Source: Candidatus Altimarinota bacterium (lineage in GTDB: Bacteria > Patescibacteriota > Gracilibacteria > BD1-5 > UBA6164). Taken from it: DNA of 64,000 nt. The notes beneath the pieces were generated by a model. The model had not been told where the DNA came from, made no database searches, and worked only from the letters and a program-made list of their open reading frames with translations. Within the stretch, counting starts at the first letter, position 1; each line of letters starts with the position of its first letter. The DNA lies in contig JAAXWG010000004.1 of the NCBI GenBank assembly GCA_013350285.1, forward strand, positions 1 through 64,000. Direction: 5' to 3'. Positions 29,859 through 46,018 of this stretch are shown here, in pieces. The translations under genes were made by a program, and so were the position numbers.

Positions 29859-32800
29859 ATGAGGCTAAAAAAATTATATCACATTCTTTTTTTATTGCTT
29901 ATTTTCTTTTTCATAAGCAAAGATTATGTTTTCTCAGAAGAGGAAATACCTGTATCAAATTCTCAAGAAATCAACGAATCAAATATATGAGAAAATTGAT
30001 GAGAAGAACTATCAAATCCTACACTTTTACAACAAGAAGAAAATTTTTGAATTGGAGAGCAAGCAGATTGAGAACAAAATATTATTCAAGAAAATTCTAT
30101 TCCTGCAATTATTTATACTCTTCAATCACCTTCTTATCTTATTCAAAAAAGCGAAAATATATATGAATGTGATGCGAGTAAAAGTGAATGTAAAGTAAAT
30201 TTTGACCTACGAGATACTTTTTCTTGATATGTTTCGACAAAATATGAATGTACAATAGATTTTTGATTGTATACTTGAGAAGAAACAAAATGTAATCCAA
30301 GTCCAATAATTTTTCCCAAATGAATTTTTTATGTAAAATTTATCATACAAGAAAAGAATAATCATCATATTTTTAGAGAAAAAGATCTCACTATTATAAA
30401 TAAAGAAATTATAAAAGAAGTCCCTAATCCTATTCTTACAATTCAAAGTTGACTTACTCAAAAAGAAGAAAATTATTTTGAATGCAAAACAGAAGAATGT
30501 AGTGCAAATCTGACTTTGGAAGACTCTTTTCTTTCTTGAAGTATTTCTTCCTATATTTGTACTTGGAATTTTTGAGATTGAGTTTTTGAAAGTCCAGATA
30601 CTCCACAAAAATGTAATCCTTCCTATATACAATTTCCTTTTTGAAAACACTCTTTGAAAGCAAAAATTAGTGAAAAATGAAATGAAACAAATTTCAAAGA
30701 GTTATATTTTACTATTGAAAATAATTTTTCTCAAAAAAATACTGATGAGGAATTAAGTTCTTCTTGAACAATAAATTTTACCCCCAATATTATTCCTCCT
30801 CTTGAAATAACTCTTCAATCACCATCATATTTAATCCAAAAAGCTGAAGATACCTATGAATGTGATGCAACAAAGTGAGATTGTAAAGCAAATTTTGATT
30901 TACGAGAAACTTTTGGCTGATGATATATTCCGACAAAATACGAATGTCATATAGATTTTCCTTTTTGGACAGGAGAAGAAGCAAAATGTAATCCAAATAC
31001 AATACTTTTTCCAGAGTGAGTTTTTGAACTAAAATTTACAATTCAAGAAAAAGAAAATCCTTTCAATTTTAATGAAAAAATTATAAAAATATCAAACCTC
31101 AAAAAAGAAACAAGTTCAGCCTCTTCTGAATCTTTATCCCAAATTGATGACGAAAAAAAAGATGAAAGAGAAATAATTATTCAATGAGGCTTAGAAAAAG
31201 AAACAAATGAAAAGTTTATATGTGCAGAAGAAATGTGTGGAGTAAATTTTACCTTTAAACAAAAATCAAAAGAAAGCTGTCTATGGGATTTTGGAGGAGG
31301 AAATTTTAAAGAAAAATATAAATATACTTGTAATCCCTGAAAGGTATATTTTACAAATGGTGTTTATAAAGTTTCTCTTCAAGTTTTTGATGAAAAAACA
31401 TTTCTTACAAGGCAATATTTTTTTTCTTTTGAAAATAAGTATTTTGAAAAAATGAGACAGACAAATACTCCTCCTCAAGCAAAAATAAGTATCCAATGAA
31501 AATTAGCAAAAAATAAAAAATTAGAAAGTAATAAACTTGTTTGTTATGATACTCTTGAATGTAGTATCAATTTCACGGGAAAAGAAAGTATTGATTTAGA
31601 AAAAAATTCTTTAGATTATTTTTGGGATTTTTGAGATGGAGAAACTTTTTCTTGAGTCAATCCAAATGCAAAAAAATATCCCCCTTGAAAATATAAAATC
31701 AGTCTCACTGTTAAAGATACTTTTTCACAAAGTAGTGATTATTTTTTTGTAGAAATTCTTGCTTCTGGTCAAATAGAAGAGAAATTTTTGGATAAAAATA
31801 TTTTTACTTCTCTCAAAATATCAAGAGTAAATGCAAATCCAAAATGAGTAGATAATAATGAATGGATAGAAATCAAAAACACTTCTTTTTCTCTTCTCAA
31901 TCTCAAATGACTTATTATAGAAGATAGTATGCTTTGATGAAGTAAAAAATATACTATTACAGATGATTTTTACCTTTTCCCTCTTGAAAAGAAAAAATTT
32001 TATAAGTCTCTTACCCATATTAATCTCAATAATGATAAAGATGAAGTAAATCTCATCTATAATATGAAAGTTATAGACACAATGTCTTGGAATTTTCCTC
32101 TTATGGATGATTATATTTTGACAGCTGAAAATTTGAATATAGAGTCACAAAAAGTAAAAGTTATAGAAGTGATAGATGGAGATACTATTCTCATAGAGTT
32201 TTTTGATGGAAGACAGGAAAAACTAAGACTTATAGGAGTAGATACACCAGAGACAAAGCATCCAAAGAAAAAAGTAGAATATTTTTGAAAAGAAGCCTCA
32301 GATTTTACAAAAAAAACACTTTCTTGAAAAGAAGTATTTCTTGAAATAGATAAAGAAAATTATAGGGACAAATATGGAAGACTTCTTGGATATATTTATT
32401 TTGAAGAAAATGAAGAGAAAAAATCGTTTAATCTCCGACTTATAGAGCTTGGATATGCAAGAGCCTATCTTGTTTTCCCTTTTAAATATAGTATTCTTTT
32501 TAAAGAAGCCCAAACTCTTGCTCGTAAAAATCTTGTCTGAATGTGGTGAGATGAAGAAATGGTCAAAGAAATAAAAATTTTGGAAAAAGAAGAAAAGGAG
32601 CTCATACAAGAAGAGCAAATACAACTCATAGAAGAAAATAATCTTGAAGTATTTGCAACAAGATTTTATGATTTTATGGAACAAGATGATTTCAATTTTT
32701 GAAAAAAATATTTTTCAAATAAAGTTCTCTCTATGTATAAAAGATGGCAACTCGGAGAAAATACTATAAAAATCTCAAATTTTTCTGAAAAAGAAAAACA

Positions 32801-33338
32801 AAATATACAAAAAACTTTTCGTATCAGTATAGCAAAACTTAAATCATGACTCAGATTTTCAGGAACAACTCTTCCATTTTCAACCATAAGAATATATTAT
32901 GATGATTTTGTTTATGAAACTTTTTCAGATGAAAAATGAAAATATAGCTATAAAACATTAGAAAATATACAAGTTTGAAATTATGAAGCAAGATTTGAAG
33001 TCATGGAGAAAAATGGGAGTGTTCATACAATAGAAAAAACAAAAACTTTTTCTCTCTCAAAAGAATATGTGAATAGTATTCAAGCCGTTCTTGTGAAAAA
33101 ATATGAAAAAGAGCTAAAAAAACTCCAAAAGAAGAAAAAAGTAAAGAAAGCAAAAAAGAAAAAGCCAAAAAAATCAAAAGCACCCAAAGAAAAAAAGATA
33201 GCAATACGAACAGAGTATAAAACAAATAATTTTGTTGCTTCCTGACAAAATATAGATATGAGACTTCTCAATTTTCTTGTCCTTATATTTTGAGTTTTAG
33301 TGTTATATCTTGTATTGAATAAGGGGGAAGAAAAATAA
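29859..33338 (+). CDS. Large surface protein: PKD-like repeats, lamin-tail domain, thermonuclease domain
   Basis: 1159 residues. Signal peptide MRLKKLYHILFLLLIFFFIS, then several PKD-like units with DxxF/WNFGDG and FWDFGDG motifs and conserved Cys pairs (to about residue 630). Residues ~650-755 (NANPKGVDNNEWIEIKN) resemble a lamin-tail domain. Residues ~765-900 (VIEVIDGDTILIEF, LRLIGVDTPET, YRDKYGRLLGYIY) match staphylococcal-type nuclease with its Arg/Glu/Arg catalytic set. A Lys-rich stretch and a C-terminal helix (LLNFLVLIFGVLVLYLVL) anchor it. Likely a cell-surface nuclease supplying nucleotides or processing DNA for uptake; this role is inference. Confidence 0.88.
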
Positions 33339-35432: not shown

Positions 35433-35542
35433 TTTATAAGAATAAATAATAACATATTATTTATAAAACATTATTATAAAAAAGCAAATAAAAATCTATT
35501 GAAAAAAAATAAAAAAATATATAATTCTTCCAACTTGATTTT

Positions 35543-35648
35543 TTGTATCAAGAGAGAGTGAGAGAGAATAGGCTCGTTATCATCACTCCAGCAACCTGTC
35601 TTTTAGATAAGGTGCTAAGTCCTACCCAGTAAAGAGGGAAAGATATAA
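35543..35648 (+). promoter_or_regulatory. SAM-I (S-box) riboswitch
   Basis: The element has the SAM-I core: TTGTATC pairing with GATATAA (P1), AAGAGAGAGTGA...TCACTC (P2), GCAACCT...AAGGTGCTAAGTCC (P3 and J3/4) and CCC...GGG (P4). It lies directly upstream of metK and is followed by an intrinsic terminator, so it most likely turns metK off when S-adenosylmethionine is high. S-box elements are known mainly from Firmicutes and related groups. Confidence 0.88.
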
Positions 35649-35670
35649 CAACGATTTTTTTCAAGCTTAT

Positions 35671-35727: not shown

Positions 35728-36861
35728 ATGAAATATTATATAACTTCAGAGTCAGTAACTTGTGGGCATCCAGATAAAGTTTGTGATCAAATAAGTGATG
35801 CTATTTTAGATGCTTGTCTTGCAGAAGATAAAGATTCAAGAGTCGCTTGTGAGTGTCTTACGACGACTTGAACAATTGTTGTAAGTGGTGAAATTACGAC
35901 AAATGCTTGGGTAAATTTTCAAGATATTGCTAGAAAAGTAGTTCGTGATATTGGTTATGATAGTCTAGAAGCTGGTTTTAGTGCTGATGATGTAAGTGTC
36001 CAAATTCTTATCAATTCTCAGTCTCCAGATATTGCTCAATGAGTAGATACAGGATGAGCTTGAGATCAAGGAATAATGTATGGATATGCGACAAATGAAA
36101 CAGAAAATTATCTCCCTGCTCCGATTAGCTTTGCTCACAAGCTTTCTCGCAGATTAGAACAGGTAAGAAAAGAAAAAATACTTCCATTTCTTCTTCCTGA
36201 TGGAAAAACTCAAGTTACAATAGAATATGATGAAAATGGAAAAATTCAAAGAGTTGATACGATTGTTATTTCCAGTCAGCATAAAGTAGATGTAAGCCAA
36301 GAAGAAATTCATAAAGGAATAAAATCACAAGTTATAGATCCAGTTTTGGGAAAATATATAGATGAAAAAACCATTATTCATATCAATCCAACAGGAAAAT
36401 TTACGATAGGATGACCAAAATGAGATTGTGGGCTGACAGGAAGAAAAATAATTATTGATACTTACGGAGGAGTAGGAAGACATGGATGAGGAGCTTTTTC
36501 TGGAAAAGATCCATCAAAAGTAGATAGAAGTGGTGCTTATGTAGCAAGATATATTGCAAAAAATATAGTCGCTTCTGGAATCTGTGATAAGTGTGAAATT
36601 CAGCTTTGATATGCGATAGGAGTTGCAGAACCAGTTTCTATTTATGTAGATATGTTTGGAACAGAAAAAGTTTCAAGAGAACTTGTTATAGAAACTATTA
36701 AGAAAAATTTTGATTTAAGTCCAAGAGGAATTATTACTCTGCTTGATCTTAAAAAACCAATTTATCAAAAAACAGCAACCTATGGACATTTTGGAAGAGA
36801 TGATGTGAGTTGGGAACATCTTGATAAAGTAGAAGTTTTTAAAACTCTTTTGAAAAAATAA
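35728..36861 (+). CDS. metK: S-adenosylmethionine synthetase
   Basis: 377 residues. [50 protein letters not shown], and [42 protein letters not shown] are invariant MetK segments; many of their glycines are TGA. It makes S-adenosylmethionine from methionine and ATP. Controlled by the SAM-I riboswitch just upstream. Its 3' end overlaps the convergent kinase gene by 23 bases. Confidence 0.97.
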
Positions 36862-45264: not shown

Positions 45265-45286
45265 ACATAAGCTTTTTGAAAATTAT

Positions 45287-45365
45287 GCGAGGGTAACATA
45301 AAAGAGTGAGTGTACTAAGGCTTCAACCCTTGGGTGTGCGAGTTCAAACCTCGTCCCTCGCTCCA
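45287..45365 (+). tRNA. tRNA-Gly(UCA), the UGA-decoding tRNA
   Basis: Acceptor stem GCGAGGG (45287-45293) pairs with CCCTCGC; discriminator T and an encoded CCA follow. T arm GCGAG-TTCAAAC-CTCGT. The anticodon stem TAAGG/CCTTG encloses the loop CTTCAAC, giving anticodon UCA (45323-45325), which reads UGA. The U discriminator fits glycine identity. The D arm (ACAT/GTGT) is weak and one extra base seems to lie between it and the anticodon stem. Short variable loop, so it is not a selenocysteine tRNA. It explains the TGA = Gly readings throughout the window. Confidence 0.9.
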
Positions 45366-45402
45366 TAAATTTTAAAAGTTGAGGAGGTTTGAAAAGAGGT
45401 TT
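45347..45402. repeat. tRNA 3'-end repeat, copy A
   Basis: AAACCTCGTCCCTCGCTCCA and the following TAAATTTTAAAAGTTGAGG to GGTTTTTTG form a unit of about 55 bases that recurs almost exactly at 45474-45530. Confidence 0.88.
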
Positions 45403-45473
45403 TTTGTGAAAGCAAAAATTTGAAAGCGATGAATAAGAGCTTTCAAAACGGATGGCTGACCCGTAAGGGCACC

Positions 45474-45530
45474 AAACCTCGTCCCTCGCTCCATAAATTT
45501 TAAAAGTTGAGGAGGTTTGAAAGGAGGTTT
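45474..45530. repeat. tRNA 3'-end repeat, copy B
   Basis: A second copy of the tRNA 3' part with CCA and its downstream sequence, without a full tRNA 5' half. The 70 bases between the copies (45403-45473) hold no supported gene. This could be a duplicated terminator region, a decayed second tRNA, or the scar of an integration event. Confidence 0.85.
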
Positions 45531-45685
45531 TTTGCTCTTTTCTTTAGCCTTAAAATAAAGAAAGAAGTAAAAAAATGAAAAATAGAAATTAGAAAAAAGA
45601 ATCAAAACTTTCTTTTCTCGCTTGTGTTTTTCATTTTTTTTGTTAATATTCCATTATATTTTATATTTTGAGTTTTAATTAGTTT

Positions 45686-46018
45686 ATGGCAAATAGTCAC
45701 GGTCTTACTTCAAGAATCGTAAAAAAGCAAGCAGCAGCAAGAAGGTTATCTAAAAATAAAAAGGCAACTTTTCAAATATATATTGGAAATGAAAATCCAC
45801 AAACAAGAAAAAATACAAGTTATAAAGCGAGAATTCATTATTTTGAAAATAAACAAAATTTTCCAAAGAAAAGATTGATGACAAAAAATCCACAAAGCCT
45901 TATAGAACAAGGAATTATTGATGAAAGAGGGTTTTTTGTAAAAGGAAAAAAGAAAAATTTCCTTACAAAATCTATGGTAGATAAGACTGGACTTGATTTT
46001 TATGGTATGCCAAGATAA
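45686..46018 (+). CDS. Unknown basic protein (110 aa)
   Basis: 110 residues, MANSHGLTSRIVKKQAAARR at the start, rich in Lys and Arg (KNKKATFQIYIG, KGKKKNFLTKSM), ending LDFYGMPR. It looks like a small nucleic-acid-binding or ribosome-associated protein, but I do not recognise the family. No TGA codon is used. It lies 19 bases upstream of rsmE on the same strand, which fits a ribosome-related role. The 155 bases before it contain no gene. Confidence 0.65.
   Translation: MANSHGLTSRIVKKQAAARRLSKNKKATFQIYIGNENPQTRKNTSYKARIHYFENKQNFPKKRLMTKNPQSLIEQGIIDERGFFVKGKKKNFLTKSMVDKTGLDFYGMPR

Follow-up and report, generated by a model that had tools for sequence, protein, structure and literature searches.

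The gene at 45287-45365 of the DNA analysed here is very probably a working tRNA-Gly(UCA) with an anticodon stem of six base pairs, and the segment directly behind it (45366-45493), judged by its sequence, a small mobile element inserted at the T loop. The evidence supports this gene as the tRNA by which a Gracilibacteria genome reads UGA as glycine, the identity bases pointing to charging with glycine. The window, i.e., the whole stretch analysed, comprises the first 64,000 nt of contig JAAXWG010000004.1; the genome is called G000 below. All features of the tRNA locus lie on its plus strand.

A single tRNA was found in the window by ARAGORN, at 45287-45365 with the anticodon tca (45323-45325), exactly where the earlier, sequence-only reading had placed it. 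The tRNA model RF00005 scored it at 45.4 bits (Infernal), above the 29-bit cut-off. Scores with that model run from 41.7 to 73.8 bits over the genome's 35 tRNA genes, so this one stands towards the lower end, and a fast-filter Rfam scan of the window did not detect the gene; together, the low score and the miss mark the tRNA as unusual but real. It has a 7-bp acceptor stem, U8 and A9, a 4-nt variable loop, a 5-bp T stem and, as had been claimed, a discriminator U (U73) and an encoded CCA. The near-consensus promoter was found as well: the sigma-70-like TTGACA-16-TATACT at 45237-45264 matches the consensus at 11 of 12 positions, and TTGAC..TATA-type hexamers also precede the gene in many relatives. 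The ARAGORN default label, tRNA-SeC, agrees with the anticodon UCA. Selenocysteine tRNAs have an 8-bp acceptor and a long variable arm. The 7-bp acceptor and the 4-nt variable loop seen here contradict that label, as do the frequent UGA codons within genes and the lack of a release factor RF2 match over cut-off; selenocysteine identity was rejected and is scarcely credible.

Matches to the tRNA(UCA) were obtained in 64 of 99 genomes including this one, the best in each genome being 78-100% identical over all 79 bases; at the sensitivity of that search, none was found in 22 genomes outside the order. The bases G1-C72, C2-G71, G3-C70 and U73 are invariant in 23/23 distinct sequences, relatives included, and by the rule of Shulgina & Eddy (PMC8629427, as given in the part consulted) they are glycine identity bases, which is how the proposed check on glycyl identity came out. 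The anticodon loop, CUUCAAC, is constant in the same set. The D arm, earlier called weak, does look so: the 4-bp D stem, ACAU/GUGU, ends in a U.G pair and is followed by an A before the anticodon stem, and the 10-nt D loop, AAAAGAGUGA, is without the usual GG. It is conserved, however, with compensatory changes at pair 1 (A-U/G-C) and pair 3 (A-U/U-A), an invariant U.G at pair 4, and GAG in the D loop of all 23 sequences where most tRNAs have GG.

An additional tRNA(UCA) elsewhere in the genome had been named as evidence against this assignment, and none occurs among the 35 tRNA genes of this 98%-complete genome. A second tRNA-Leu(CAA)-like gene (contig C8, 216842-216924; L034), with a poor acceptor and no encoded CCA, is likely a pseudogene. 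In a search of the genome with the RF2 model no match passed the cut-off; the sole match, at 264.6 bits where 370 are required, was an RF1-like protein, which has the PET and GGQ motifs and four in-frame UGA codons. When the DAHP synthase encoded in the window was aligned with PDB 9j7h, glycine stood at 16 of the 22 aligned UGA columns, the others being serine (3), alanine (1), cysteine (1) and aspartate (1), with one more UGA opposite a gap. For RsmE aligned with 1vhk, glycine occurs at 4/9 UGA columns. A nuclease domain alignment held few UGA codons and was left out of this count. The window also encodes a 1159-aa protein (29859-33338) in whose reading frame UGA occurs 40 times; its domains include PKD, lamin-tail and staphylococcal-nuclease-like ones. 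A SAM riboswitch (35542-35649, 50.9 bits) lies in the window ahead of an ORF at 35728-36861. Identity bases, the sole UCA tRNA, the absence of an RF2 match over cut-off and glycine at UGA columns thus uphold the proposal that this tRNA is the basis of UGA = Gly, an assignment already published for this group (PMC8629427, PMC4032931 and PMC13092985, in the sections consulted).

The D-arm junction had been described as unusual, with one base too many. The extra base is real but is no defect: C45315, between the D stem and the anticodon stem, pairs with G45333 as a sixth anticodon-stem pair, C-G in 22 and U-A in 1 of the 23 distinct sequences, all of which have seven bases, not six, between the D stem and the anticodon loop. 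The resulting 6-bp stem, CUAAGG/CCUUGG, flanks the loop. Only the tca and ccg tRNAs of this genome have two bases between the D stem and the anticodon stem. Over 183 distinct tRNAs from the loci examined, the extra base is present in 23/23 tca, 2/2 ccg and 1/4 Trp(cca) tRNAs, the last with an ambiguous D stem, and in 0/154 others.

The tRNA(CCG) of this genome (contig C1, 145276-145352; loci L031 and L297) is called Arg by ARAGORN and has A1-U72, G73 and the extra base. A search of the order gave matches in 33/77 genomes. Among 29 distinct genes (30 loci), the outer pair covaries (C-G 13, A-U 9, U-A 6, U.G 1) and the tryptophan-type bases A1-U72 and G73 are present in 29/29; the innermost pair is an A.C mismatch in many. 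In the T loop of most of these relatives UGCAAUU replaces UUCAAUU. CGA and CGG are read as Trp in Absconditabacteria, and CGG as Trp in some Gracilibacteria, according to the part of Shulgina & Eddy consulted (PMC8629427). With the counts above, this indicates that, within the set examined, the extra base accompanies the two tRNAs linked to changes of the code. When the origins of the two tRNAs were compared, the nearest tRNA changed with the part compared. The longer anticodon stem probably tunes the decoding or charging of tRNAs that are given a new codon. Does it allow a tRNA with a reassigned codon to decode that codon without errors at neighbouring ones? The question is testable; a shorter stem has been reported to let tRNA-Trp read UGA (PMC13092985, from a partial text). 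The extra base or 6-bp stem is not mentioned in the consulted parts of PMC8629427, PMC13092985 and PMC4032931, and, judged by titles or the starts of abstracts, no report in the open-access literature describes its sharing by tRNA(UCA) and tRNA(CCG).

The region behind the tRNA is built around a direct repeat of 62 nt that the sequence-only reading had missed, 45345-45406 and 45473-45534, with 98% identity and the second copy 128 nt downstream. It contains the part of the tRNA that begins at C56 of the T loop and ends with CCA, plus the next 41 nt. The first copy thus runs from the tRNA through an 18-nt trailer (45366-45383) and an arm into the start of the element. The folded element (45384-45472) starts 18 nt 3' of the tRNA with the 10-nt arm GAGGTTTGAA (45384-45393), the reverse complement of the tRNA T-loop/T-stem bases TTCAAACCTC (10/10 complementary), which forms helix P1 with the orphan 3' half. 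The core (45394-45472) holds P2, P3 with the loop GATGAATAAGA (45428-45438), and P4; covariation, a DNA fold z of -4.26 and a match to covariance model R2 (45384-45480, 101.6 bits) support it. There follow the tRNA 3' half once more, as an orphan from C56 to CCA (45473-45493, 21/21 identical), a second trailer (45494-45511, identical to the first at 18/18 positions) and the beginning, cut short, of another element unit, GAGGTTTGAAAGGAGGTTTTTTG (45512-45534), where the second repeat ends. The general layout is therefore [complete tRNA]-[trailer]-[10-nt arm]-[core P2, P3, P4]-[orphan 3' half C56 to CCA]-[trailer]. A chance repeat is ruled out by the 98% identity and the covarying relatives. A small protein encoded in the element was rejected as well, the frame ATG AAT AAG being stopped early in G018 and G023 (by eye). 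The next gene after the tRNA, a 110-aa ORF (MANSHGL..., 45686-46018), holds the same place in several relatives and has no Pfam or NCBIfam match.

Copies of the element were sought in relatives by pattern and by covariance models. A pattern search found it in 8/77 genomes of the order (reversed control, 0). A first model, built from nine copies, gave matches in 27/353 genomes of the class at E<=0.05, all matches of at least 40 bits falling within the window's own family; a second, built from 61 matches, found the element in 23/48 family genomes at E<=0.001, with about 80 matches and up to ten insertions per genome. A longer pattern matched 25 loci in genome contigs, 24 titled Gracilibacteria or Altimarinus and one Halolactibacillus; the last was judged by eye to be chance. 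Two pattern matches in viruses, without the element's other features, were rejected, and the longer pattern gave none there. A set of 60 copies was examined (the 61 matches minus L113:1-54, which is cut off, and the weak L177:5546-5663, plus L112), and 54 of them have a tRNA on the same strand within 200 nt upstream. Of the other six, two form a pair at a tmRNA (the first of them immediately follows it), one lies at a contig start in a tandem array, and three are without a tRNA. For these three (L106, L107 and L114; one in G023, two in G037) ARAGORN found no tRNA within 1.5 kb on either side; they have a longer 3' region and flanks in common, and possibly represent another target or another form of the element. 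In L112, L178 and L185 the P4 region is expanded. Weaker matches added 20 loci, 17 with a tRNA just upstream. The target range covers 22 anticodons and tmRNA: 19 anticodons from the 54 copies, and Asn, Ser(GGA) and Arg(CCG) from the weaker matches.

The 10-nt arm is complementary to the T-loop/T-stem strand of its target tRNA. Over the 54 copies (the six for which ARAGORN gave no tRNA upstream are left out), the arm matches its own tRNA at a mean of 4.80 of six variable positions, against 3.67 after shuffling and a maximum of 4.0 in 2000 shuffles. An anchor served to place the arms, and this can go wrong: L112 scored 4/10, whereas by eye its arm is GAGGTTTGAA at 10/10, and another placement gives 10/12. 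The orphan has 21/21 tRNA bases in most copies, not all; low scores (10-15/21: L155, L166, L173, L174, L163, L183, L177, L158, the second Val copy of L153, and L112) are partly truncation or misplacement and partly decay. The tRNA stays intact because the segment running from C56 to the CCA end exists in two copies, which in some cases take in a piece of the trailer. In many copies the two trailers match over a few bases only, and their shared prefix averages 5.1 nt, against 1.1 nt in mismatched pairs.

Related genomes also provide an empty site. The tRNA-Ile site is unoccupied in G043; in G035, a genome from the same genus, the element stands at that position between matching flanks, and G003, G022 and G030 carry it there too. 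The element lies at the T loop of its target, a tRNA or tmRNA gene, with the junction between U55 and C56; its arm would have to change with each new target. Within one genome the cores are near-identical and the arms and orphans differ, which indicates movement with retargeting, or core conversion between copies. A non-mobile RNA that acts in cis on the processing or regulation of the tRNA, its arm pairing with its own T arm or with the orphan as a decoy, would account for the covarying fold and for the position, nearly always on the same strand and close behind a tRNA; in the predicted fold of a long transcript (45265-45540), moreover, the T-arm strand pairs elsewhere and the cloverleaf is broken. 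By that prediction, the insertion may lower tRNA yield. The sister genome empty at the same tRNA and the 25/48 family genomes in which the element was not found speak against such an RNA, as do terminator-like hairpins between tRNA and element in some copies (G038 and G016, by eye) and the tandem arrays in G038 and G030. It is judged quite improbable, and insertion of a mobile element remains the preferred reading.

The fold was examined for signs of DNA or RNA. In an alignment fitted to the structure (the first alignment was made by MAFFT), 94.7% of helix cells are paired and 311 cells show double changes, against 82.5 after shuffling. P1 cells are 84.4% paired, and the helices covary. Among the 1147 paired cells of P2-P4, 11 are G.U, compared with 7.6% in the acceptor and 6.5% in the T stem of host tRNAs, a scarcity that could partly stem from shared descent. 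At the inner pair of the P3 loop, C-G stands in 28 and T-A in 27 cases with no wobble, and the P4 loops are mostly GNA triloops, as C(GNA)G or T(GNA)A. GNA triloops are stable in DNA. The fold z of the window copy is -4.26 (plus strand) and -3.71 (minus strand) as DNA and -3.77 as RNA, and since these values are similar, folding energy alone does not decide between the two. Covariation, the near-absence of G.U, the lack of wobble and the GNA triloops together favour, and from sequence suggest, a folded single-stranded DNA.

An RNA route would have a ribozyme-like RNA pair with the T loop through its arm and reverse-splice between U55 and C56, a reverse transcriptase then copying it with a staggered cut, so that the 3' half and trailer form a target-site duplication. 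The duplication does extend from C56 variably into the trailer, as the shared prefix shows, the arm spans the junction, and the RNA fold z fits. The near-absence of G.U pairs argues the other way. Reverse transcriptase, present in 23/48 family genomes, does not track carriers (element in 11/23 genomes with it and 13/25 without). Of the Rfam families searched on the element at three loci down to E 10, only tRNA reached its cut-off, the rest being weak and far below theirs. This route is considered unlikely.

The 24 carriers in the association tests are the 23 from the second model and G018, found by pattern only. Y1 transposase occurs in 17/48 family genomes; neither it nor reverse transcriptase is associated with carriers, and both were rejected as drivers. 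A second tyrosine recombinase is present in 9/48 family genomes, 8 of which are carriers (Fisher p 0.023, kinship ignored), and the mean number of element copies is 4.2 in genomes with it and 1.1 in those without. All three recombinases tested pass the XerA/integron-integrase model NF040815 and score 207-214 bits with TIGR02249, below its 265 cut-off; the other six of the nine were grouped with them by eye. This recombinase is absent from the present genome, which has one Phage_integrase match (C1:197055), and in the stretches searched no element lies close to its gene. It is a candidate enzyme and a lead only. With not quite an even chance of being right, the proposal is that the element acts as a folded single-stranded DNA whose shape is recognised by a tyrosine recombinase, as for integron attC.

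Integrative islands that target tRNA genes are classically marked by a duplication of the tRNA 3' end. Since such duplications are present here, the copies could be remnant att sites of ordinary integrative elements that lost their genes; at a tmRNA in G011 (C27:8000-13800, L151) two 176-bp copies do flank two larger ORFs, of 455 aa (ATP-grasp-like by eye) and 320 aa (beta-lactamase/transpeptidase-like by eye), a locus where Rfam found tmRNA alone. Such an origin is nonetheless rather doubtful, given the same folded core at 22 anticodons, the arm-to-orphan distance of 85-91 nt in most copies, and the arm matched to each tRNA.

Taken further, and held tentatively as something that may well prove otherwise, the element could represent a new class of mobile DNA: about 90 nt, folded, able to insert at the T loop of tRNA genes of nearly any kind and of tmRNA, keeping the gene whole and having its arm rewritten for each target. 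It would be integron-like with tRNA genes as receiving sites, possibly served by a XerA/integron-integrase-like recombinase, and the extra base and 6-bp stem would mark the two tRNAs with reassigned codons in this lineage. Judged by titles or abstract starts, the open-access literature holds no description of the element, nor does the consulted part of a Gracilibacteria genome paper (PMC6851277). The question opened is how a genome bears up to ten insertions behind essential tRNA genes unharmed; the insertions may be harmless through the tRNA left whole and the arm matched to it. If true, recognition of the universal T loop by a fold would be a new means of locating a safe place to insert.

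Among known systems, the tRNA-Gly(UCA) of Absconditabacteria and Gracilibacteria (code 25) has the same anticodon and glycine identity bases, with no RF2 and UGA at glycine positions; compared with the published accounts, as far as consulted, the tRNA described here has in addition the 6-bp anticodon stem with the extra base, common to tRNA(CCG). The latter resembles the tRNA of published CGG = Trp (PMC8629427, in part) in its anticodon CCG, G73 and A1-U72, a likeness drawn here from tRNA genes alone.

For the element, group II or other retro-introns are set apart by reverse transcriptase, of which 11/24 carriers have an RVT_1 match, and IS200/IS605 or REP elements by Y1 transposase, with a Y1_Tnp match in 8/24. 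Integrative elements of tyrosine recombinases have in common with it the tRNA/tmRNA 3' part as target and a gene restored by a duplicated 3' end; the ssrA islands of Dehalococcoides (PMC3146451) are reportedly of this kind, residing in tmRNA genes. Unlike them, the element is short, has no integrase gene, and forms one family over 22 anticodons. Integron attC sites and cassettes share with it a folded site with complementary outer arms, to which the pairing in P1 and the covarying helices would correspond, as well as tandem arrays and one fixed insertion point. The integron attC is a single hairpin with a GTTRRRY core site. In contrast, no integron integrase gene lies nearby, most copies of the element are without genes, the receiving site is the T loop with the junction UU|CRA, and there are three covarying inner hairpins and an outer arm that follows the target tRNA.
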